A stretch of DNA of 57,344 bases, taken from NCBI GenBank assembly GCA_016214265.1, contig JACROU010000102.1:1-57344 (forward strand), given 5' to 3'. Below, piece by piece: positions 45,791 to 56,554 of this stretch. Numbering within the stretch: position 1 is the stretch's first letter; each line of letters opens with the position of its first letter. Below the pieces are notes generated by a model, which had not been told where the DNA came from, did not search any database, and saw only the letters and a list, made by a program, of their open reading frames with translations. The stretch is from Candidatus Omnitrophota bacterium. Lineage in GTDB: Bacteria; Omnitrophota; Omnitrophia; Omnitrophales; JACROU01. The position numbers were made by a program, and so were the translations under genes.

Positions 45791-45854
45791 TATACCGAAT
45801 TTCGCAACATTCCCGAAGTAGCAGTGATAGGCTATCAACTTGATAAGGAGGCCT

Positions 45855-47420
45855 ATGCTCTATCTGAGGAAACGCAAGATCGCGTTGAAAAAAGGATTGA
45901 TGTTGTTGGCTCTTTTCTTTCTTTCAGTCGCTATTTTGCAGATCAAGACAATTTGTTTCAGTTTCCTTCCAATTAAATCTTCAGTTAATCATGCTGCTGA
46001 TGTCGGTATCGTCATCCTTGTTTGTTTAATCACTTATAAACCTATTGAACAGTTTGTTAATTATCTTTTTCGAGAATTCTTTTTCAAAAAGGGAATCGGT
46101 TTTCATACGCAATTGATTCATTCGACAAATCATTTGGTGTCCTGCCTTGATCTTAAAGAGTTCTCTAATTTCTTAGTGAATACCTTGAGCGATTTGCTTC
46201 ATGTTAAATACGTTGCGTTTCTGATTTATGATCAGAAGCAAAAAGAATTTGTTCCGGGAGCGTTGGCCGGGTTTAATTTTCGCGAGACTCGGAAAATTCG
46301 TTTTGAAAAAGATTCACCGCTCATCAATAAACTTCGGGAGTCCTCTTTTCCGGTACTGCGATTTGATGTGTTGAAACGGGTGAGCTGGCCGGAAGCATCT
46401 CGGTTCAATACCGATTTTGAATTGCTTCGTGCGCAGGTAGTAATTCCTGTTTTTTATGGGGAAGAAGTTATCGGGTTTATTACGCTGAGCTCAAAACCTT
46501 CTCATCTTCCATATCTTCCTCATGAGTTGAAATTACTTCACGATTTTTCTGGCAGGATCAGTTTCGGATTGGAAAACGCGATTCGTTTTAATGAAATGAA
46601 ACAGCGGTATGAAGAGTTGAAGGATTTTCAGTCGCGTCTGGTTCATTCCAATAAATTTTCTGCCATTGAGCAGTTGGCAACGGGAATTGCCCATGAGATT
46701 CATAATCCGTTGACGATTATTTCCGGAAAAGCGCAGATGCTACTTCTTAATCGAGATAAGAATTTTCTGACTGCCAAGGCTGAGGAAGATTTGAAAATGA
46801 TCGTCCAGCAGACAACGCGTGCGGCTGAAATAACGCGGAAACTTCTTGTGTTTTCCAAATCAAGTCCTGAGCAAAAAGCCCCTCTTTCATTCCGTGAGAT
46901 TATTGATGACACCTTTGAATTAATTTCCTATCAAACCTCGATTGATCACGTGCGGATTATAAAAGAGATCAGTCCGAATCTCCCAGCGATTAAGGGGCAT
47001 GTCGAGGAGTTCCGTGAAGTTTTCCTGAATCTTATTTTGAATGCCGTCCAATCTGTTGAACGGGATGGTGTGATCAAGGTCTTGGTGGATTATTCTGAGC
47101 GGGATCAAAGTATTGAAATTAAAGTAGAAGATTCGGGTTGTGGTATTAAAAAAGAACACTTAAGTAGTGTTTTTGATCCTTTTTTCACAACGAAACAGAA
47201 CAGCCTTGGGTTGGGACTGTTTGTGACGCAACGGGTTGTTCAGAGAAATGGCGGCTACATCACGATTGAGAGTGAGGCCTATAAAGGAACAGAAGTCACT
47301 ATCTTACTCCCAGTGCCTGAAACCAATGAAAAGCAGCCTATTTTTTCGACGCCCGTGTTTGATGAAAAAGTATCTTATCAGGGCGCTTACATCGATCAAA
47401 ATCAAAGCAAGGAGGAATAA
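45855..47420 (+). CDS. GAF-domain membrane sensor histidine kinase
   Basis: 521 residues. Two N-terminal membrane helices (LMLLALFFLSVAILQI and VGIVILVCLITYKPI), a GAF domain at ~80-235, a DHp/HisKA helix with IAHEIHNPLTIISGKAQ (phospho-His280), and a HATPase domain: EVFLNLILNAVQSV (N box), VEDSGCGIKKEHL (G1), FDPFFTTK (F), and GLGLGLFVT-type G2. ATG 45855 has AAGGAGG only 3 bases before it. A second ATG at 45900 is possible. The frame also reaches a TTG at 45840. It probably phosphorylates the receiver encoded next. Confidence 0.93.
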   Translation: MLYLRKRKIALKKGLMLLALFFLSVAILQIKTICFSFLPIKSSVNHAADVGIVILVCLITYKPIEQFVNYLFREFFFKKGIGFHTQLIHSTNHLVSCLDLKEFSNFLVNTLSDLLHVKYVAFLIYDQKQKEFVPGALAGFNFRETRKIRFEKDSPLINKLRESSFPVLRFDVLKRVSWPEASRFNTDFELLRAQVVIPVFYGEEVIGFITLSSKPSHLPYLPHELKLLHDFSGRISFGLENAIRFNEMKQRYEELKDFQSRLVHSNKFSAIEQLATGIAHEIHNPLTIISGKAQMLLLNRDKNFLTAKAEEDLKMIVQQTTRAAEITRKLLVFSKSSPEQKAPLSFREIIDDTFELISYQTSIDHVRIIKEISPNLPAIKGHVEEFREVFLNLILNAVQSVERDGVIKVLVDYSERDQSIEIKVEDSGCGIKKEHLSSVFDPFFTTKQNSLGLGLFVTQRVVQRNGGYITIESEAYKGTEVTILLPVPETNEKQPIFSTPVFDEKVSYQGAYIDQNQSKEE

Positions 47421-47424
47421 TATC

Positions 47425-47790
47425 ATGTTGAAATTACTTGTTGTGGATGATGAAGAAGAGATATGCGATTTTCTCAGAATTTTTTTTGAAGAAAGAAATT
47501 TCAAGGTAAGCACAGCTTTGTCGGGTGAAGAGGCGCTTCGGAAAGTTGAGGTTGAACAGCCAGATGTTTGTCTGTTAGATATCAAGATGCCGGGGCTTGA
47601 TGGAATACAGGTTCTTAAAGAGGTAAAGCGTAGGTATCCCAAAATCAAGGTTATTATGGTGACCGCGATTGAAACGACGGAGAAAATTGAGGAGGCTGTA
47701 AGAATTGGGGCGGATAACTACATCACGAAACCACTCAGTTTGGAATATTTGGAAAAAGATGTGCATCAGAAAATCTCGGATGTCGCATAA
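47425..47790 (+). CDS. Single-domain response regulator (CheY-like)
   Basis: 121 residues, one receiver domain: acidic pocket VVDDEEE, phospho-acceptor LLDIKMPGLDG (Asp52), Thr in MVTAIET, and ITKPL (Lys). No output domain. AAGGAGG (47409-47415) sits 9 bases before this ATG. The frame runs back to 47236 inside the kinase gene, but that part is out-of-frame overlap without support. It should relay the kinase signal to a partner, perhaps the HD-GYP protein or the ParA system. Confidence 0.94.
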   Translation: MLKLLVVDDEEEICDFLRIFFEERNFKVSTALSGEEALRKVEVEQPDVCLLDIKMPGLDGIQVLKEVKRRYPKIKVIMVTAIETTEKIEEAVRIGADNYITKPLSLEYLEKDVHQKISDVA

Positions 47791-47803
47791 CAAATAAGAG
47801 AAT

Positions 47804-49051
47804 ATGATTAATTATCCAGAAGCCCTCAAAAATGCTGCCAAGAGTATGGTCCGGTTTAAGAATCCGGATAATCTGCTTCGTATGATCGTGCGTTTTATCG
47901 CGAAAGAAATTGGACTTACGCATGCTAGCATTCTTGTTTTTGACACAGTTCGCCAGCGTTATACTTTTATTGATTCCCGCGGAGAATCAAAACTGCCAGT
48001 TCACTTAATCCGTATCGACTCTGATCATCCCTTAATTCTTTCATTCATGGGAAAAGGGAAAAAACCCCACCTATACAAAGACGCTCTTCTTCTGAGTCAT
48101 TTAGAGAAATTTGTTGAAAGTAAAGAGTCGAGCAGAGGGATTAAGATTAAGAAAGTTTTTGATTCTATGAAATCGATTAAAGCCTCGGTGTGTGTGCCCA
48201 GTTTTTATCAGGGGGAATTGTTGGGGGTTTTAATTCTTGGCGAGAAGAAAGACAGGGATGATTTTACGCACGAAGAATTATCTTTCTTCCACACGCTGGC
48301 CAGTGATGCGGCAATGACAATCAAAAACACGGAGTTTCAATCGCAGCTGATTGACAGAAATCGTCAATTGGAAGAAAAACTGGCTGAAATTAAACGTCTT
48401 CGAAAGAAAGAGCAGGAGACTTATTTTCAAATTATGCTTTCTTTGGCTCGTGAAGTTCGAGAAAAAGATGACAGCACCTTCGGTCATCTTGAGGCAGTGG
48501 AAAAATTAGGTCTTATGACGGCCGAAGAGCTTGGTATTGATTTGTCTGGGAAAAAGCGTGACATATTGATCGCCGGCCTGCGGCTTCATGATGTTGGGAA
48601 AATCGGTATCCCTGATTCGATTTTAAAAAAAGAAGACAAATTAACTCCTGAAGAATGGCTGATTATGAAGCAGCATGTCGACAAAGGCGTGAAGATCTTA
48701 GAACCGTTGACTGATTTCAAGGATGTGGTTGAAATCGTCCGGTGTCATCATGAGTTTTACAATGGTAAAGGATACCCCCGCGGACTTAAAGGAAGTGAAA
48801 TTCCAATAGAATCCTCGATTGTTTCTGTTGTAGATGCATTTCATGCTATGATATCCACACGTTGTTACAAAAAAGGATTTTCGTTGGAATACGCTTTGGG
48901 AGAGCTTAATGCGAATTCTGGAGAACAGTTCCATCCGAAGGTGGTAGAAGCTTTTATCTCTGCATTGAAGAAAAATATGTACGGTTATTATAAATCGCGT
49001 ATTAGTGAAGAACGACAGATTCAGCATGAAGAAAAACCTAACACTATTTAA
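47804..49051 (+). CDS. GAF / HD-GYP phosphodiesterase
   Basis: 415 residues. GAF domain at ~20-185, coiled linker, then an HD-GYP domain: LRLHDVGKIGIPDSIL (His262, Asp263), MKQHVDKGVKIL, VRCHHEFYNGKGYPRGLKG, and SVVDAFHAMIS. HD-GYP enzymes break down cyclic di-GMP (or related dinucleotides) with a di-iron site. Metal ligands look complete, so it is probably active. It lies 13 bases after the receiver gene. Confidence 0.93.
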   Translation: MINYPEALKNAAKSMVRFKNPDNLLRMIVRFIAKEIGLTHASILVFDTVRQRYTFIDSRGESKLPVHLIRIDSDHPLILSFMGKGKKPHLYKDALLLSHLEKFVESKESSRGIKIKKVFDSMKSIKASVCVPSFYQGELLGVLILGEKKDRDDFTHEELSFFHTLASDAAMTIKNTEFQSQLIDRNRQLEEKLAEIKRLRKKEQETYFQIMLSLAREVREKDDSTFGHLEAVEKLGLMTAEELGIDLSGKKRDILIAGLRLHDVGKIGIPDSILKKEDKLTPEEWLIMKQHVDKGVKILEPLTDFKDVVEIVRCHHEFYNGKGYPRGLKGSEIPIESSIVSVVDAFHAMISTRCYKKGFSLEYALGELNANSGEQFHPKVVEAFISALKKNMYGYYKSRISEERQIQHEEKPNTI

Positions 49052-49087: not shown

Positions 49088-50344
49088 ATGAGAATTGTCG
49101 CGATTGCTAATCAAAAGGGAGGTTGTGGCAAAACCACAACAGCTATAAATTTATCTGCCAGTTTGTCCTTTTTAGGAAAAAGAACACTGCTTGTCGATTT
49201 AGATCCTCAAGGACATTCTACTCTTGGGCTTGGATATAACGTTGAGAATTTCAATAAAACGTTGTATGACGTATTGAGCCCTCGTGAAAATCAGGCTTCT
49301 TTGGAAGAAGTAATTTTACGAATTAATGAAAATCATCATTTAGTGCCCTCCCATGTCATTTTAAGTGCGATTGAACAGCAGCTTGCCGGAGTTTATGGCC
49401 GCGAAGAGAAATTAATGGAAAAGCTGAGAACAGTTCAGTCTCATTATGATTTTGTCATTATTGATTGTCCTCCTAATTTGGGTTTGCTTACCTTTAACGC
49501 TTTGCGTGCCGCGGATGAATTGCTTATTCCTGTAGAGCCCTCCTATTTTTCTCTTCAGGGATTGAAAAAAATCCGCGAGACCGTCGATTTGATTGAAGAA
49601 ACACTAAAGCACCATATTACAACCCATGCCCTGCTTACGCTGTTTAACAGCCGCTCCAATTTCAGTCGGAAGATTCTTTCTGAACTTCAGTTGTTTTTCA
49701 AGGATCAGCTGCTCCGCACGACCATTAATCAAAATGTACGGCTTCGCGAGGCGGCTCAGGCGGGGATGTCTGTTTGTGATTTTGACCGTAAAAGTACTGG
49801 ATTTCGCGATTATATGAATTTGGCCTCAGAATTAATTGAGCGGGGAAGCGTGACAAGACTGATTGAATCTTATCAGGCCGCTGAGACGGAATCTCCAATT
49901 TCGTTTAATGAAACCAGAACCGAAATTGCTGACAGTTTTAATCTTCCAGATGATCCTGTTATTGAAATTTCTACAGCGGATAAAATATGGGGTGAAGCGA
50001 CATCCTTAAAGCAGGACACTTTGCAATTTCCAGCACTGCTGACAGATGGGGTTATTTTGGGCTATAATGATCCTCATGCAAAGTTGGTGCAGGTTGCTGG
50101 TGATTTTAATAATTGGGTTAATGAAGCGCTTGACCCAACTGATTTGCAAAGGGGAATTTGGGAAAAATTTATTCCACTCGCACCCGGAAGATATCGCTAT
50201 AAGTTTATTGTAGATGGAGAATGGACAGTAGACCCTCAAAACAGTGTCTCAGAGCCAAATCCGTACGGTGGAATTGACTCTGTTATCGTAATTTCCAGAA
50301 TGCCTGAAGAGATACTCAATGAGCGAAGCTCGGTCAACATCTAA
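49088..50344 (+). CDS. ParA-type ATPase fused to a glycogen-binding (CBM48/AMPK-beta-like) domain
   Basis: 418 residues. The ParA/Soj part (1-~260) has the deviant Walker A KGGCGKTTT (Lys10, Lys15), LLVDLDPQGHSTLGLG, VIIDCPPNLGLLT and SRSNFSRKIL. After a ~55-residue linker, residues ~319-411 form an early-set immunoglobulin-like domain: VQVAGDFNNWV, IPLAPGRYRYKFIVDGEW, VDPQN, and NSVIVI-like SVIVIS. This is the CBM48/AMPK-beta pattern that binds alpha-glucan. ATG 49088 is chosen over a TTG at 49070. I see no parB next to it. The fusion suggests positioning or control tied to stored glucan, which is an inference. Confidence 0.9.
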   Translation: MRIVAIANQKGGCGKTTTAINLSASLSFLGKRTLLVDLDPQGHSTLGLGYNVENFNKTLYDVLSPRENQASLEEVILRINENHHLVPSHVILSAIEQQLAGVYGREEKLMEKLRTVQSHYDFVIIDCPPNLGLLTFNALRAADELLIPVEPSYFSLQGLKKIRETVDLIEETLKHHITTHALLTLFNSRSNFSRKILSELQLFFKDQLLRTTINQNVRLREAAQAGMSVCDFDRKSTGFRDYMNLASELIERGSVTRLIESYQAAETESPISFNETRTEIADSFNLPDDPVIEISTADKIWGEATSLKQDTLQFPALLTDGVILGYNDPHAKLVQVAGDFNNWVNEALDPTDLQRGIWEKFIPLAPGRYRYKFIVDGEWTVDPQNSVSEPNPYGGIDSVIVISRMPEEILNERSSVNI

Positions 50345-51161
50345 AACAGAACTTAAAGACGTATTAGGCGTTTTTTTATCTAAATCTCAAGAAAGTTCTC
50401 CCACGGAATTGACCTCAAAAAGTCCGGAAATTCCGGATACCCAGGTGATCAGCCTTTGTTCTCCTTTGAGTGAGGAGGAGACCTTTGCGCTGAACCTTCT
50501 TTTTCCTTTCTGCCTTTCCAGTTATTACAAAAACCGGTATTTCGCGACTAACCCTCCGACAACAGACGATTTAAAAATCGCAGGTAAATTATTAAGTGGC
50601 AAAGGGTATTCTTCTGAGAGGATGAAGCTTTCGGATAATTACTTCTGGCTTCACTGGCCGGACAGAAAAATTTTTGAAGATTCATCGGTCGGTGGAATGG
50701 CAGATTCTCATATTCTACCTTCTGGTTCCTTGGTTACCGTTGATCTTTTGAGAAGCAATATTTCGGGTTTTGAGCAAACAATTCGGATACTCGATCAATT
50801 GATTCTGGTAATCCGCCCCCAAATTGAAGATTTGAAGAACGCCTACAAAATTATAAAATCTTGTTACTACATTAACCGGCAGCTAGAGACAGTAATCATT
50901 TTTAATGCGCATATGACGCAAGGAGAGGTGGAAAAAGTTTTCGCCCGTTTTGCAAGCATTGTTTCGCAGTTTCTGGTGCTTCCGATCCGGTGTTTGGGTG
51001 CTATTCCACTCAATCTTTATTCCGAAAATTTTATCGAAGAAGTTCCTGCGTATCTGAACTTGGATACGCTGATGTTGACCCGGACAGGTAAGTTCAGGCC
51101 CAAAACGTCTTCTTTGGAACGTATCCGATTTTTACAAAAATTATCTACGATAGTGGAGTAA
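50319..51161 (+). CDS. Degenerate MinD/FlhG-like ATPase-fold protein
   Basis: 280 residues with no Walker A. Residues ~135-245 read like the second half of MinD/FlhG: LVTVDLL, QLILVIRPQIEDLKNAYKIIK, TVIIFNAHMTQGEVEKVF, and LVLPIRCLGAIPLN, where active relatives have DxILVTTPEPTxxxDAY and FLGxIPxD. The N-terminal ~60 residues are polar. The start overlaps the ParA fusion gene by 26 bases. I infer a catalytically dead partner for that ATPase. The assignment is by pattern only. Confidence 0.7.
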   Translation: MSEARSTSKTELKDVLGVFLSKSQESSPTELTSKSPEIPDTQVISLCSPLSEEETFALNLLFPFCLSSYYKNRYFATNPPTTDDLKIAGKLLSGKGYSSERMKLSDNYFWLHWPDRKIFEDSSVGGMADSHILPSGSLVTVDLLRSNISGFEQTIRILDQLILVIRPQIEDLKNAYKIIKSCYYINRQLETVIIFNAHMTQGEVEKVFARFASIVSQFLVLPIRCLGAIPLNLYSENFIEEVPAYLNLDTLMLTRTGKFRPKTSSLERIRFLQKLSTIVE

Positions 51162-51166
51162 CCTTA

Positions 51167-51739
51167 ATGCAGATTCAGTTTATTCAGGCAGAAGAGAAAA
51201 ACGATATAGCACTCGGCGCCATTCTGGAACCAGTTTTTAAAAAAATATTTCCAGAATACAAACCCCTTCATCTGCCTTCATGGTTATTAGCCAATGAGCC
51301 CACCTTGGCCTTTGAAAAGGAAGGGGCAATTATTTTGGTTGTATTGTGGCCTTCGGCTGATTCTAAAGAACAGGTTTATCATTTGCTTGAAACCAAAGCA
51401 AAATGGGAACAATTTTCCCGAACATTTGCTAAAGATTGTCAGGTTAATCTGGCCGTTTTTGGCGAGAAAATCCCTGATGCTGTGGTGAAAATCCTTCGAA
51501 TTGAAGAAGGTGCTCGGGCATTTGAGTTGTTCTTTATTCCCGAAGACAATAAGGTATTTGTGAAAGATTTGATTGCTAGAAGAAAAGATATGATCCCTGA
51601 AGTTAAATATCAATCTGAGAATGTTTTAAAACAGGACACATCTCTTACTTCTTTTTTCTATAAAATGGGAAAACTTTCTGAAGAAGAAATTTCAAAATTT
51701 CTTGAATTGGAGTCCGATCTTAATCAAATGGGGCTTTAG
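51167..51739 (+). CDS. Unknown protein, co-transcribed with ParA fusion
   Basis: 190 residues, no family recognised. It is soluble, with alternating strands and helices (GAIILVVLWPSAD, VNLAVFGEKIP, ARAFELFFIPED) that resemble a nuclease-like or Rossmann-like alpha/beta core without visible catalytic motif, and a polar helical tail. GGAG precedes the ATG, 5 bases after the previous stop. Its position suggests it works with the ParA and MinD-like pair. Confidence 0.8.
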   Translation: MQIQFIQAEEKNDIALGAILEPVFKKIFPEYKPLHLPSWLLANEPTLAFEKEGAIILVVLWPSADSKEQVYHLLETKAKWEQFSRTFAKDCQVNLAVFGEKIPDAVVKILRIEEGARAFELFFIPEDNKVFVKDLIARRKDMIPEVKYQSENVLKQDTSLTSFFYKMGKLSEEEISKFLELESDLNQMGL

Positions 51740-51830: not shown

Positions 51831-52544
51831 ATGGCATCCGTGAAAGAAGACGTAGAAATTCTAAAAAAAGTTCAAATTCTGGATAAAGAAATTTACGATT
51901 TGGGAATTTTTGTATCTCAAATACCAGAGCGTATCGTTGAAATTGAAAAAGAATTTGAAGGAAAAAAATCCCATTTTAATCTTCTTGAAGAAGAAATAAT
52001 AAAGACGAAACTTGGTGTTAAAGATAAAGAGCTCGAGTTGGGAAAGAAAGACGGAGAAATAGCCAAATTAGACGGCCAGCTTGCTCAGATGAAGACCAAT
52101 AAAGAATATACCGCGATGCTTGAACAGATTGCCGGTATCAAAGCGGATAAGGGGATGTTGGAAGAGAAGATTCTTTTAGATTGGGACAATGTTGAAAAGT
52201 TAAACAAAGAAAAAGAAGAAGAGAAAAAACGGCTGGCTGGAGATGAGATGAAGGCCAATCAACAAAAAAAAGTTTTAGAAGAAGATGGCAGGCGGGCTGA
52301 GGAAAAAATCAGACAGTTGAAAGAAGAAAGAATAAATATTTTAACCCCTGTTACCCATGAAATTAAGGATTTGTACGAGAAAATTCTCGCCAAGCGGGAA
52401 GGAGTCGCCTTGGTTAAAATTGATGGTGAAAATTGTGGTGGTTGCCAATTCCTTTTACGTCCGCAAATTATTAATGAAGTAAGACTGCAAGAAAACATCA
52501 CGCTATGTGAACGCTGTACCCGCATCTTGTACTACGAAGCTTAA
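51831..52544 (+). CDS. Coiled-coil C4 zinc-ribbon protein (zf-RING_7 / CT398 family)
   Basis: 237 residues. A long antiparallel coiled coil (~1-185, many KEKEE and LEEK heptads) ends in a zinc ribbon: CGGCQFLLRP and CERCTRIL. Related proteins in Chlamydia and other bacteria interact with sigma-54 or type III systems; the general role is not settled. It has its own strong promoter and stands alone. Confidence 0.92.
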   Translation: MASVKEDVEILKKVQILDKEIYDLGIFVSQIPERIVEIEKEFEGKKSHFNLLEEEIIKTKLGVKDKELELGKKDGEIAKLDGQLAQMKTNKEYTAMLEQIAGIKADKGMLEEKILLDWDNVEKLNKEKEEEKKRLAGDEMKANQQKKVLEEDGRRAEEKIRQLKEERINILTPVTHEIKDLYEKILAKREGVALVKIDGENCGGCQFLLRPQIINEVRLQENITLCERCTRILYYEA

Positions 52545-52654
52545 TTCTCCAAAAACCAACTAAATCATAATCAACTGAGAGCCCGTAAAGCCATCAGGAG
52601 TCCTCTGCCCTTAACCTGTGCCATATCGAGTCATATCATCAAAATAATATTCTA

Positions 52655-52683
52655 TTGACTCATTCTATCCCTGTGAATATACT
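52655..52683 (+). promoter_or_regulatory. dcw cluster promoter (Pmra)
   Basis: TTGACT (52655-52660), 17-bp spacer, TATACT (52678-52683). Start expected near 52690, just before the MraZ boxes. Confidence 0.82.
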
Positions 52684-52695
52684 ACGCCCATTAAT

Positions 52696-52722
52696 AAAGT
52701 GGTGAAAAGTGGAGGATAGTGG
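52696..52722 (+). promoter_or_regulatory. MraZ boxes (three direct repeats)
   Basis: AAAGTGG (52696), AAAGTGG (52706) and ATAGTGG (52716), spaced by three bases (TGA, AGG), a 10-bp period. This is the known MraZ operator type (AAAGTG[GT] with N3). It lies right after the start site and covers the ribosome-binding region of mraZ, so binding would repress the operon. Confidence 0.82.
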
Positions 52723-52728
52723 CGGACG

Positions 52729-53175
52729 ATGTTTTACGGCGAATATGAGCACTCAATAGACAAAAAGGGAAGGCTGATAGTTCCAGCGCGCTTCCGCGAG
52801 ATATTCAAAGAGCGATATTCCGAAAAGTTTTACGTCACACGTGGTCTAGACAGATGTTTATTTTTGTTTGCGGAGGATGATTGGAAACAGCAGGAAAAAA
52901 AATTTAAAGAGCTTCCGTTTACACGTGAGGAAGCTAGAAAGTTTAATCGACTTTATTTTTCAGGTGCCTGTGAAGTGATTTGCGACGTGCAGGGAAGAAT
53001 TTTGGTTCCCCAATATTTACTTGATTACGCGGGCATTCAGGAAGAGGTCATGATTGTCGGCGTGTCCGATCGAGTGGAAATTTGGTCGAAAGCAAAATGG
53101 CAGCAATTTTTTGGTTCTTCAATTGACAGTTTTGAAACGTTGGCCGAAAAACTATTAGATGATAAAAAAAACTAA
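52729..53175 (+). CDS. mraZ: Transcriptional regulator MraZ
   Basis: 148 residues with two SpoVT/AbrB-like halves: FYGEYEHSIDKKGRLIVPARFRE and, in the second, GACEVICDVQGRILVPQYLLDYA; quoted here only in part as DKKGRLIVPARFRE and DVQGRILVPQYL. Forms a ring that binds the boxes at 52696-52722 and controls the dcw operon. Length is normal (~143-152). Confidence 0.96.
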   Translation: MFYGEYEHSIDKKGRLIVPARFREIFKERYSEKFYVTRGLDRCLFLFAEDDWKQQEKKFKELPFTREEARKFNRLYFSGACEVICDVQGRILVPQYLLDYAGIQEEVMIVGVSDRVEIWSKAKWQQFFGSSIDSFETLAEKLLDDKKN

Positions 53176-53195
53176 AATTTAAATAGGGGGTGAAC

Positions 53196-53540
53196 ATGCA
53201 GTTCTCGCGTCGAGTGGGGAAAGTAAGCAATATCAATGTGTTGAGATGTGATGACTTGAGTGCCTCTTGTGTGGTGAGTCTCCGAAATAAAGTAAACCGG
53301 TTGATGAGTCGCAGACATTTGAATGTTGTTATCGATCTTTTGTCGGCAAAAAAAATGGATGCAGCTGGAATCGGAATTCTGGTCGAGAAACTTCTTAGAT
53401 TGCGTGCGCAAAAGGGCGATATCAAACTTTGCCGCATACGTCCTGAAGTTTCCCGAATGATGGAACGTGTCGGAGTGGGGACTCTGTTTGAAACGTTCCA
53501 GACAAAGGAAGAAGCGTTAGAAAGCTTCCGGGAAATCTGA
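53196..53540 (+). CDS. STAS-domain protein (anti-sigma factor antagonist type)
   Basis: 114 residues, one STAS domain. It has LNVVIDLLSAKKMDAAGIGIL, quoted as VVIDLLSAKKMDAAGIGIL, where the SpoIIAA-like phosphoserine position holds Ala-Ala (DAAG, usually DSSG). It then reads KLCRIRPEVSRMMERVGV and FETFQTKEEAL. Without the Ser it may not be switched by a partner kinase. AGGGGG (53185-53190) lies 5 bases before this ATG; a GTG at 53190 is also in frame. Its place between mraZ and rsmH is unusual. Confidence 0.85.
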   Translation: MQFSRRVGKVSNINVLRCDDLSASCVVSLRNKVNRLMSRRHLNVVIDLLSAKKMDAAGIGILVEKLLRLRAQKGDIKLCRIRPEVSRMMERVGVGTLFETFQTKEEALESFREI

Positions 53541-53542
53541 TT

Positions 53543-54430
53543 TTGCATGAGCCCGTACTTAAAAATGAAGTCCTTCATTACTTGCATCCAAAGCCTGGAT
53601 TTAATGTTTTAGATGCCACTATCGGTGGTGGGGGGCATAGCGAAACAATCCTTGAAAATATTCTCCCGGGCGGATTCTTATTAGGACTGGATCAGGACTT
53701 TGAAGCTCTTGAACGTACTCGGGTTCGACTGATACGATTCTCCGATCATCTGGATTTAATCGAAACAAATTTCCGCGATCTTGATCTGGCCATATTAAAA
53801 TATCCCACCATAAAATTTGATTCTATTCTTTTGGATCTAGGTTTTTCATCCGATCAGGTGATGAGTCCTTCCCGGGGATTTAGTTTTCGTCTCGACGCGC
53901 CTCTGGATATGCGCATGAGTCTTAAGTCGGAGTTAACGGCAGCCGATCTTCTAAATACACTGCCAGAACAGGATTTGGCCGATATTATTTGGAAGTATGG
54001 AGACGAACACCGGTCACGGCGTTTCGCAAAAGCAATTGTTGAAGCAAGACGTAAACAGCCATTTTCCACAACGTTAGAACTTGCTGGTTTAATTGAAAAA
54101 TCCGCGGGAGGGCGACATGGAAAAATCCATCCAGCCACGAAGGTTTTTCAGGCGTTACGGATTGCGGTTAATGATGAATTGGGTGCTATCAAAGAAGCGA
54201 TTCCGAAGGCATTGGCAGCTCTTAAAGCTAAAGGTCGTCTAGCTATTATCACTTTCCACTCTTTGGAAGACAGAATTGTAAAAAATCTCTTCAAAGAAAA
54301 GGAAAAAGAGGGAATAATAGACATAATTACGCGTAAAGTGGTGATGCCTTCTCGTGAAGAGTGCTTGCGAAATCCAAGAGCACGAAGTGCCAAGTTAAGG
54401 GTTGTGGAAAGAAGGTTGATTGAATCATGA
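53543..54430 (+). CDS. rsmH: 16S rRNA m4C1402 methyltransferase RsmH (MraW)
   Basis: 295 residues. N-terminus HEPVLKNEVLHYL, SAM loop DATIGGGGHSETIL, GLDQD, LLDLGFSSDQV, RGFSFRLDAPLDMRM, and ITFHSLEDRIVKN. The start codon is TTG, which puts the conserved HxPVL at residue 2. It is 2 bases after the STAS gene stop. The 3' end overlaps ftsL by ATGA. Confidence 0.96.
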   Translation: MHEPVLKNEVLHYLHPKPGFNVLDATIGGGGHSETILENILPGGFLLGLDQDFEALERTRVRLIRFSDHLDLIETNFRDLDLAILKYPTIKFDSILLDLGFSSDQVMSPSRGFSFRLDAPLDMRMSLKSELTAADLLNTLPEQDLADIIWKYGDEHRSRRFAKAIVEARRKQPFSTTLELAGLIEKSAGGRHGKIHPATKVFQALRIAVNDELGAIKEAIPKALAALKAKGRLAIITFHSLEDRIVKNLFKEKEKEGIIDIITRKVVMPSREECLRNPRARSAKLRVVERRLIES

Positions 54431-54792
54431 TTCGAAAATTTTTGCTTTGTCTCTGCATCATTTCGATTTTCTTGGGCTATGTTGCTCAGAAAGTGAATTT
54501 GGTTCGTCTTTCCTATGAAATTGATCACAAAGAAAAAATTTATCGCGAGTTTCTGGAAGAACAAAAGCACTTGCGCTTTAAAGTGGCGTATTTAAAATCC
54601 CCCAAACGGCTTGATGCCATGATGGAAGCGGCTAAAATTAATTTTCAATTGCCGCGTGAAATTCGCATTGTAAAACTGATGCCTCAAGATATCGAACCAT
54701 CCCAGAAGCTTTCTTCTGGGACAACGGAGGAAGGCTTTGGAAATTGGCTCAATTGGATTAAAGAGGCTCAAGCAAAAACAACCCGCAGTTAA
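54427..54792 (+). CDS. ftsL: Cell division protein FtsL
   Basis: 121 residues: short cytoplasmic N-terminus, one membrane helix (FLLCLCIISIFLGYVA), then a coiled periplasmic part with RLSYEIDHKEK. This topology and the place between rsmH and ftsI identify FtsL rather than sequence conservation. It has a ~35-residue tail beyond the coiled coil. Confidence 0.88.
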   Translation: MIRKFLLCLCIISIFLGYVAQKVNLVRLSYEIDHKEKIYREFLEEQKHLRFKVAYLKSPKRLDAMMEAAKINFQLPREIRIVKLMPQDIEPSQKLSSGTTEEGFGNWLNWIKEAQAKTTRS

Positions 54793-56554
54793 ATCCTCTC
54801 CATTTCGTTACTTACCCCGCCCGGTGAATTCAGCTGTTTCACCCAACCGGATTCGTCTGTTAACGTATCTTATTTTTGGACTGTTCGCTCTAATTGCGTT
54901 TCAGCTTGTGATCTTGGCGTGGATTCGGCAGGATGAGTTGGCCGGCATCGCCAAGCGTCAGCACAATCTTGTCATTGAAATTCAACCCAAACGCGGTTTG
55001 ATTTATGATTCCAACCTTAAGGAATTAGCGACTTCCCTCAGAGTTCCTTCTATTTACGCGGTTCCCCGACTGATGGGGAATAAAGAACGTTTCATTGTTG
55101 CCAAACAATTATCTCAGATTCTCGGCCTTAATTATTCGGATCTCGTAAAACGCTTTTCGAAAAAAAAATCGTTTGTTTGGCTTAAGCGCCGTGTCAAAGA
55201 TGAGCAGGGTGAAGCAGTTAAAAAGTTAAAAAATCCGAATGTGGGTGTTGTTCCGGAATATAAACGTTTTTATCCTAACACCTCGTTGATGGCCAATCTA
55301 ATGGGATTTTGCGGTATTGATAACAATGGTTTGGAGGGATTGGAGCTTAAATTTGATTCGTATCTGAAGGGCAAAACAGGATATCGTTATACAAAACGTG
55401 ATGCGATGGGGCGGGAAATTGTGGCGATGGAAGAAAAGCTCATTCCCGCGGTGAACGGATACCATTTAGTTCTGACCATCGATCAATATATTCAATATCT
55501 GACGGAAAAAGAATTGAATGCTGCTTGCACGCAATGGAATGCCAAAGGGGGCATGGCCATTGTGATGAATCCCAATGATGGCGCCATTCTCTCCATGGCT
55601 TCCTGGCCGACTTATGATCCCAATCATTTGAAGGATTATCCATCAGCGAATCGGAGGAATCGGGCCATTACTGATTTCTTTGAGCCCGGTTCCATATTTA
55701 AAATTGTAACGGTGACTGGAGCCTTGAACGAAGGGGCGGTTCATATCGAGGACAAATTTGATTGCATGCACGGAATTTGGCAAATTGGACGTCGGACTTT
55801 GCATGACGTTCATCCCTATGGAATCCTGGATTTACAGGAAGTTTTAATTAAATCCAGCAACATTGGAACGGTTAAAGTCGCTGCCCGTCTTGGAGCGCAG
55901 AAACTTTATTATTACATCAAACAGTTCGGATTTGGGGCCATCTCCGGAATAGAGCTTCCGGGCGAAGTCGTGGGTATTGTTCGTCCTCCCAGTCAGTGGT
56001 CGGGAACCTCGATGGCTTCAATCCCGTACGGTCAGGAAGTAGCCGCGACGGCAATTCAATGTTTGTCGGCGCTGAATGTGATCGCAAATGGCGGCACCTA
56101 CTACAAACCGCATATTTTGAACAAAATTATTGACGATAAGGGTATTGAGATTGTTACTACCAAACTGGGAGTCAAAAAAAATATTGTAAAACCCGAAGTT
56201 GCCGCATCAATGAGGCGCATTCTGGAACGGGTTGTTGAGGAGGGAACTGGCAAAACCTCTCAAATCGAAGGAATTCCTGTAGCAGGTAAAACAGGAACCG
56301 CACAGAAAATTCTGCCAACAGGAGGATATTCTCATAGTAACTTCGTAGCCTCGTTTATCGGATTTGCACCAGTCGACAAGCCGCTTGTGAGTATGATTGT
56401 CGTTTTGGATGATCCGCATCCCAGTTATTACGGTGGCACGGTGGCAGGTCCTGTGTTTAAAAAAGTGATTGAGCAGGCCTTGTTGTATAAAGGTTACCGT
56501 CCGCAGAACACGATTCAAACCAAAAAAACGGTTCAAAAGTCCCGTCACGAATGA
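54737..56554 (+). CDS. ftsI: Division-specific transpeptidase FtsI (PBP3)
   Basis: 605 residues: one membrane helix (LIFGLFALIAFQLVILAWI), the PBP dimerisation domain (EIQPKRGLIYDSN), and the transpeptidase with SxxK in GSIFK (Ser319), SSN (373-375), and KTGTA (518). It crosslinks septal peptidoglycan. The start is TTG at 54737, with GGAGG at 54726-54730 six bases before. This gives a 56-base overlap with ftsL. A later GTG at 54824 has no such site. No PASTA domain. Confidence 0.95.
   Translation: MEIGSIGLKRLKQKQPAVKSSPFRYLPRPVNSAVSPNRIRLLTYLIFGLFALIAFQLVILAWIRQDELAGIAKRQHNLVIEIQPKRGLIYDSNLKELATSLRVPSIYAVPRLMGNKERFIVAKQLSQILGLNYSDLVKRFSKKKSFVWLKRRVKDEQGEAVKKLKNPNVGVVPEYKRFYPNTSLMANLMGFCGIDNNGLEGLELKFDSYLKGKTGYRYTKRDAMGREIVAMEEKLIPAVNGYHLVLTIDQYIQYLTEKELNAACTQWNAKGGMAIVMNPNDGAILSMASWPTYDPNHLKDYPSANRRNRAITDFFEPGSIFKIVTVTGALNEGAVHIEDKFDCMHGIWQIGRRTLHDVHPYGILDLQEVLIKSSNIGTVKVAARLGAQKLYYYIKQFGFGAISGIELPGEVVGIVRPPSQWSGTSMASIPYGQEVAATAIQCLSALNVIANGGTYYKPHILNKIIDDKGIEIVTTKLGVKKNIVKPEVAASMRRILERVVEEGTGKTSQIEGIPVAGKTGTAQKILPTGGYSHSNFVASFIGFAPVDKPLVSMIVVLDDPHPSYYGGTVAGPVFKKVIEQALLYKGYRPQNTIQTKKTVQKSRHE

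Follow-up and report, generated by a model that had tools for sequence, protein, structure and literature searches.

The window, a stretch of 57,344 nucleotides from Candidatus Omnitrophota bacterium (assembly GCA_016214265.1, contig JACROU010000102.1), was contig 93 of a 2.3-Mb genome that was 91% complete. On its forward strand, positions 49088-50344 held an open reading frame starting with ATG after a GGGGG stretch and encoding 418 aa. Pfam assigned AAA_31 to aa 1-177 (1.5e-57) and AMPK1_CBM to aa 330-402 (1.6e-11, 44.7 bits against a cut-off of 26.8), with CBM_48 at 3.1e-8. PHROGs gave a ParA-like partition protein. The observation of a ParA ATPase fused to a glucan-binding domain, made in the initial annotation, was thus confirmed, and the C-terminal motifs it had read as CBM48/AMPK-beta hallmarks were present. 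The ParA domain comprised aa 1-253 (49088-49846, +), with a KGGCGKT deviant Walker A motif including the signature Lys, a DPQGH motif and Arg at both known DNA-binding Arg positions. Its best PDB sequence match was 8ray (9.3e-58), whose residue numbering fits the M. xanthus ParA (PMC12462528), and Soj structures were also close. A linker of low conservation followed (49847-50026, +), which varied in length from 9 to 171 aa over 106 fusions. The CBM48 domain of the AMPK-beta type comprised aa 314-403 (50027-50296, +) and was closest in sequence to a GH13 pullulanase and AMPK-beta CBMs. Its predicted glucan contacts were W343 (50114-50116), K372 (50201-50203), W379 (50222-50224) and Y393.

Gene X (50319-51161, +; 280 aa) started 26 bp inside the fusion gene and followed it in most of the order. 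It carried a docking-like motif at 50343-50384 (+). Gene Y (51167-51739, +; 190 aa) followed X in relatives, had no Pfam match and gave a very divergent alignment. Further downstream (51831-56554, +) lay a zinc-ribbon coiled-coil gene and then mraZ, a STAS gene, rsmH, ftsL and ftsI, the start of the dcw division and cell-wall cluster. The mraZ family was found in 19 loci including the window. Upstream (45840-49051, +) were histidine kinase, response regulator and GAF-HD-GYP genes. This context was shared with two other loci only (L034 and L035) and was restricted to the window's own taxonomic family. Other families of the order had obg-, proB-, proA- and nadD-like genes and two CNNM/CBS genes in that place.

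The fusion was not a single case. Most of the 58 Omnitrophota relatives first searched held a full-length fusion in one open frame, as did 99 of 145 Omnitrophota genomes by a score cut-off chosen between fusions and ordinary ParA. A scan of one-per-species genomes found full-length fusions in Omnitrophota, Auribacterota, Rokubacteria, Zixibacteria, Planctomycetota, Eisenbacteria, Krumholzibacteriota, deltaproteobacterial groups including Desulfobacterales and Myxococcota, Latescibacterota and Acidobacteriota, that is, in the window's phylum and about ten others. As the scan looked for NQKGGCGK or DxDPQ[GA]H peptides and kept only the best 80 hits, it gives no prevalence outside Omnitrophota. 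This recurrence excluded chance or mis-assembly as the origin of the fusion. One fusion of deltaproteobacterial type was located in a record titled Methanomassiliicoccales archaeon (CP070739), likely a binning or naming problem. In a maximum-likelihood tree of 66 ParA domains, all 44 sampled fusions fell in one group (support 100/99). The only other member was a ParA without a detected CBM (genome G147, contig C83), so loss or exchange of the domain has occurred. That genome lacked a detected GlgA and also held a full fusion on contig C68. Five ParA copies without a CBM (loci L138, L139, L140, L141 and L151) shared KGGCGKT and DPQ[GA]H with the fusions but lay outside their group and apart from ordinary chromosomal ParA. 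The KGGCGKT/DPQGH signature was therefore rejected as a unique mark of the fusion.

Residue conservation was examined in 106 aligned fusions. The signature Lys, the Walker Lys and both motif-2 Asp were invariant. The Asn of DPQGN was always His, although part of the set was found with a pattern containing that His; the genome-search members were not. The position equated with R189 of B. subtilis Soj was Arg in 97 fusions and the equivalent of M. xanthus R238 was Lys or Arg in 82. The window had Arg at both. Y81, which binds ParB R13, was Tyr in 96. In the CBM48, the equivalents of AMPK-beta W100, K126 and W133 are W343, K372 and W379. Of the two glucan-stacking Trp, Trp100 was kept in 106 of 106 and Trp133 in 105; the glycogen-binding Lys126 was kept as Lys or Arg in 99 and Gly147 in 105. 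Leu146 was Tyr or Phe, Asn150 was Asn or often Asp and Thr148 was not kept. In AMPK, W100G and K126Q abolish glycogen binding and W133L and G147R weaken it (PMC6274970). Loss of the sugar-binding Trp and Lys residues, which had been named beforehand as grounds for discarding a glucan-binding role, was thus not observed. The predicted CBM48 structure (pLDDT 92.8) matched the AMPK-beta CBM structures 1z0m, 4yee and 4yef, several AMPK CBM structures having bound cyclodextrin, with rmsd values of 1.2-1.4 A for the best-fitting chains and a best target-normalised TM of 0.88-0.91. The best structural matches were AMPK and the glucan phosphatase SEX4.

The product of gene X is a probable partner of the fusion. 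Its first 38 residues were predicted with very low confidence, as expected for a disordered stretch. The remainder was predicted as an alpha/beta fold, with moderate confidence (mean pLDDT 70), whose best Foldseek hit was FlhG (4rz2, E 1.6e-8). No KGGxGK-like motif, and hence no P-loop, was present. X could not be linked to ParA directly by hhalign. The link came by fold and through next-gene proteins of other phyla, which matched X with 98.8% (E 1.1e-16) and ParA with 83.6% (E 8.2e-6). In other phyla the next-gene proteins differed in body but began with LGRGLEDVSHLFLS, SRGLEEISHFFLS, RRGIGSIAHLFLS and the like, an LGRGLxxVSHLFLS-like tag; KRGLxDISxLF was another form in other families. The bodies were FlhG/MinD-like, of an unassigned type termed c24, or, in one case (locus L125, 1614-2966), composed of an HTH-like domain, a coiled coil and a membrane segment. 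The c24 body (L055, 7088-7786; L118, 7175-7813) showed a GxxDLLAVD...LTIIDFE pattern reminiscent of nuclease-fold proteins without a clear active site. Gene Y and the c24 partner as one family were not supported by hhalign (5%). A motif matrix trained only on the window's order found the motif in 18 of 39 next genes of other phyla and in 1 of 224 matched control pairs (p 3.5e-16). About half of the loci in other phyla, mostly Planctomycetota, showed no motif-bearing next gene. The spacing equals that of ParB L11-x-R13-x-L15-x-x-L18-I19 (PMC12462528). In the window's own family, however, the motif reads KTELKDVLGVFLSK and the Arg is missing; in ParB, R13A leaves binding but removes most ATPase stimulation. 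Charged N-terminal docking peptides on otherwise unrelated partners are the rule in ParA/MinD systems (PMC10241942). In WOR_2-type Omnitrophota the neighbour was an upstream membrane protein with a conserved IYEHLAKIYLD N-terminus (L079, 5405-5980, and 23 other loci), in many loci near GH57 and an alginate-export-type porin. It resembles the motif by eye and may be the partner there, but all 24 members scored low with the matrix, leaving it only suggestive.

Genes of glucan metabolism were present in the same genomes. Among near relatives, glgA was found in 20 of 20 and GH57 in 18 of 20, and both were present in the genome of the window. In this genome a 93-aa stand-alone CBM48 gene (locus L003, 1450-1731) ended about 75 bp before glgA, with a GC-rich hairpin-like stretch between them. 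Similar short CBM48 genes occurred in many relatives, and a CBM48 hit and a glgA hit were adjacent in one further genome (G005). In 14 WOR_2-type loci a GH57 gene lay close upstream of the fusion. Over 145 Omnitrophota genomes, a strong GlgA was missing in 6 of 99 with the fusion and 11 of 46 without (p 0.004). Those six all had a GH57 match, so that GlgA or GH57 was present in 99 of 99 versus 38 of 46 (p 6.6e-5). These tests ignore shared ancestry and genome reduction and glycogen genes are near-universal in the phylum, so the support is weak. A DUF3417 search was uninformative. Glycosyltransferase-5 domains were also found inside open frames of about 37,700, 57,100 and 13,100 codons (G099 contig C3, G103 contig C6 and G018 contig C8, respectively), representing giant genes. 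Glycogen synthesis has been inferred for Omnitrophota before (PMC8542988).

The best reading, considered about as likely as not, is a ParA-type positioning ATPase that binds alpha-glucan, most likely glycogen, through its own CBM48 and works with a partner encoded next to it. In this view, ATP-bound sandwich dimers would sit on the nucleoid while the CBM48, on a flexible linker, would hold a glycogen particle. The partner, here X, would dock with its disordered N-terminal peptide in the ParB-type pocket of the dimer and trigger ATP hydrolysis and release. Repeated binding and release would spread glycogen over the nucleoid, keep it off the poles and the division plane and share it between daughters. 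This would avoid the polar glycogen build-up that excludes the chromosome and stops division in E. coli csrA mutants (PMC4836754). The analysis itself established the domain composition, the catalytic and sugar-contact residues, the existence of one main family, the partner motif with its linkage and the glucan enzymes in the same genomes, whereas glucan binding, nucleoid binding, ATPase activation by X and the positioning itself are inferred. The interpretation in the initial annotation, that such a protein could place storage granules, share them at division or tie division to energy reserve, was therefore only partly supported: the domain assignment was right, but placing or sharing granules remains an inference. 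That the family is widespread, that the next gene encodes a probable partner and that the genome has a separate ordinary ParA-ParB pair could not be seen from the sequence alone. Two further points speak against the reading. In known systems the partner, not the ATPase, carries the cargo link, and the immediate neighbours in this order are division genes, not glycogen genes. A broader version remains possible but more tentative, namely an ancient, dedicated ParA-type system, shared by about ten bacterial phyla, that positions and partitions alpha-glucan (glycogen) particles and in which the ATPase itself grips the polymer through a CBM48 and mostly non-homologous partners sharing only a ParB-like N-terminal peptide drive its cycle and tie it to division or the envelope.

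Alternatively, the CBM48 might read the level of glycogen or malto-oligosaccharide and tune the ParA cycle, while something else, such as the division machinery or a membrane protein, is positioned. This AMPK-like logic fits the location of the gene with X and Y just before mraZ-rsmH-ftsL-ftsI in 19 loci, which also fits a tie of the positioning system to division. Some proteins that carry or may carry the docking motif have a membrane segment, namely the L125 protein and, only suggestively, the WOR_2 upstream protein, and AMPK uses the same domain type as a glycogen sensor (PMC6274970). However, the division linkage was limited to one order, and other clades lay beside GH57, purL-purQ-like genes or unrelated genes. 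The sensor reading is doubtful. It is also unlikely, though not excluded, that the CBM48 binds a different saccharide or a protein and serves as a scaffold without a storage role. Asn150 is often Asp and Thr148 varies, CBM48-like early-set domains can act as structural modules, and glucan binding is inferred from sequence and model alone. The near-invariant stacking Trp over about ten phyla, the retention of Lys126 as Lys or Arg, the structural matches and the GH57 and glgA links speak against it. A chromosome or plasmid partition ParA that happens to carry an extra domain is very unlikely. The ParA part is closest in sequence to chromosomal ParA structures and the DNA-binding arginines are mostly kept, but no parB gene was adjacent, the fusions form a separate clade and the same genome has a standard parA-parB pair elsewhere, whose ParB begins TRGLGKGLGALI.

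Positioning ATPases are known for DNA, carboxysomes, chemotaxis arrays, flagella and the divisome, but are not known for carbon stores, and active placing or sharing of stored sugar is not known from any bacterium. Literature searches, limited to open-licence PMC papers, found no paper on this fusion. ParA/MinD positioning as a kind of system is known, whereas an ATPase that carries its own glucan-binding module, and a glucan as predicted cargo, are not known to have been described. If the reading is true, many little-studied bacteria actively place and share glycogen at division, and a link between energy reserve and cell division becomes accessible with one protein, one partner and a pair of Trp mutants. 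The partner motif also offers a way to find partners of orphan ParA proteins.

Compared with ParA/Soj of ParABS chromosome segregation (M. xanthus ParA, PMC12462528), the fusion shares the fold, the deviant Walker A, the motif-2 Asp, most DNA-binding Arg positions, the conserved Tyr for the ParB Arg and, in other families of the fusion, a partner gene with an LxRxLxxLI-spaced N-terminal motif. It differs in the C-terminal CBM48, in DPQGH instead of DPQGN and KGGCGKT instead of KGGVGKT, in a probable partner that is not ParB and in its separate clade. With McdA-McdB carboxysome positioning and other ParA/MinD cargo systems (PMC10241942, PMC6328274) it shares a ParA/MinD ATPase and a neighbouring, highly variable probable partner whose charged, disordered N-terminus is the expected docking element. 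Here, the ATPase itself carries a cargo- or ligand-binding domain and the predicted cargo is alpha-glucan. The fold and the Trp, Trp and Lys/Arg contact positions are those of AMPK-beta/CBM48 glycogen-binding domains (1z0m, 4yee, 4yef), but the domain is fused to a ParA ATPase rather than a kinase scaffold and differs at the Leu146, Thr148 and Asn150 positions. Gene X shares its predicted fold with FlhG/MinD ATPases (4rz2) but has no P-loop, carries an N-terminal motif resembling the ParB docking motif and is likely a pseudo-ATPase partner.
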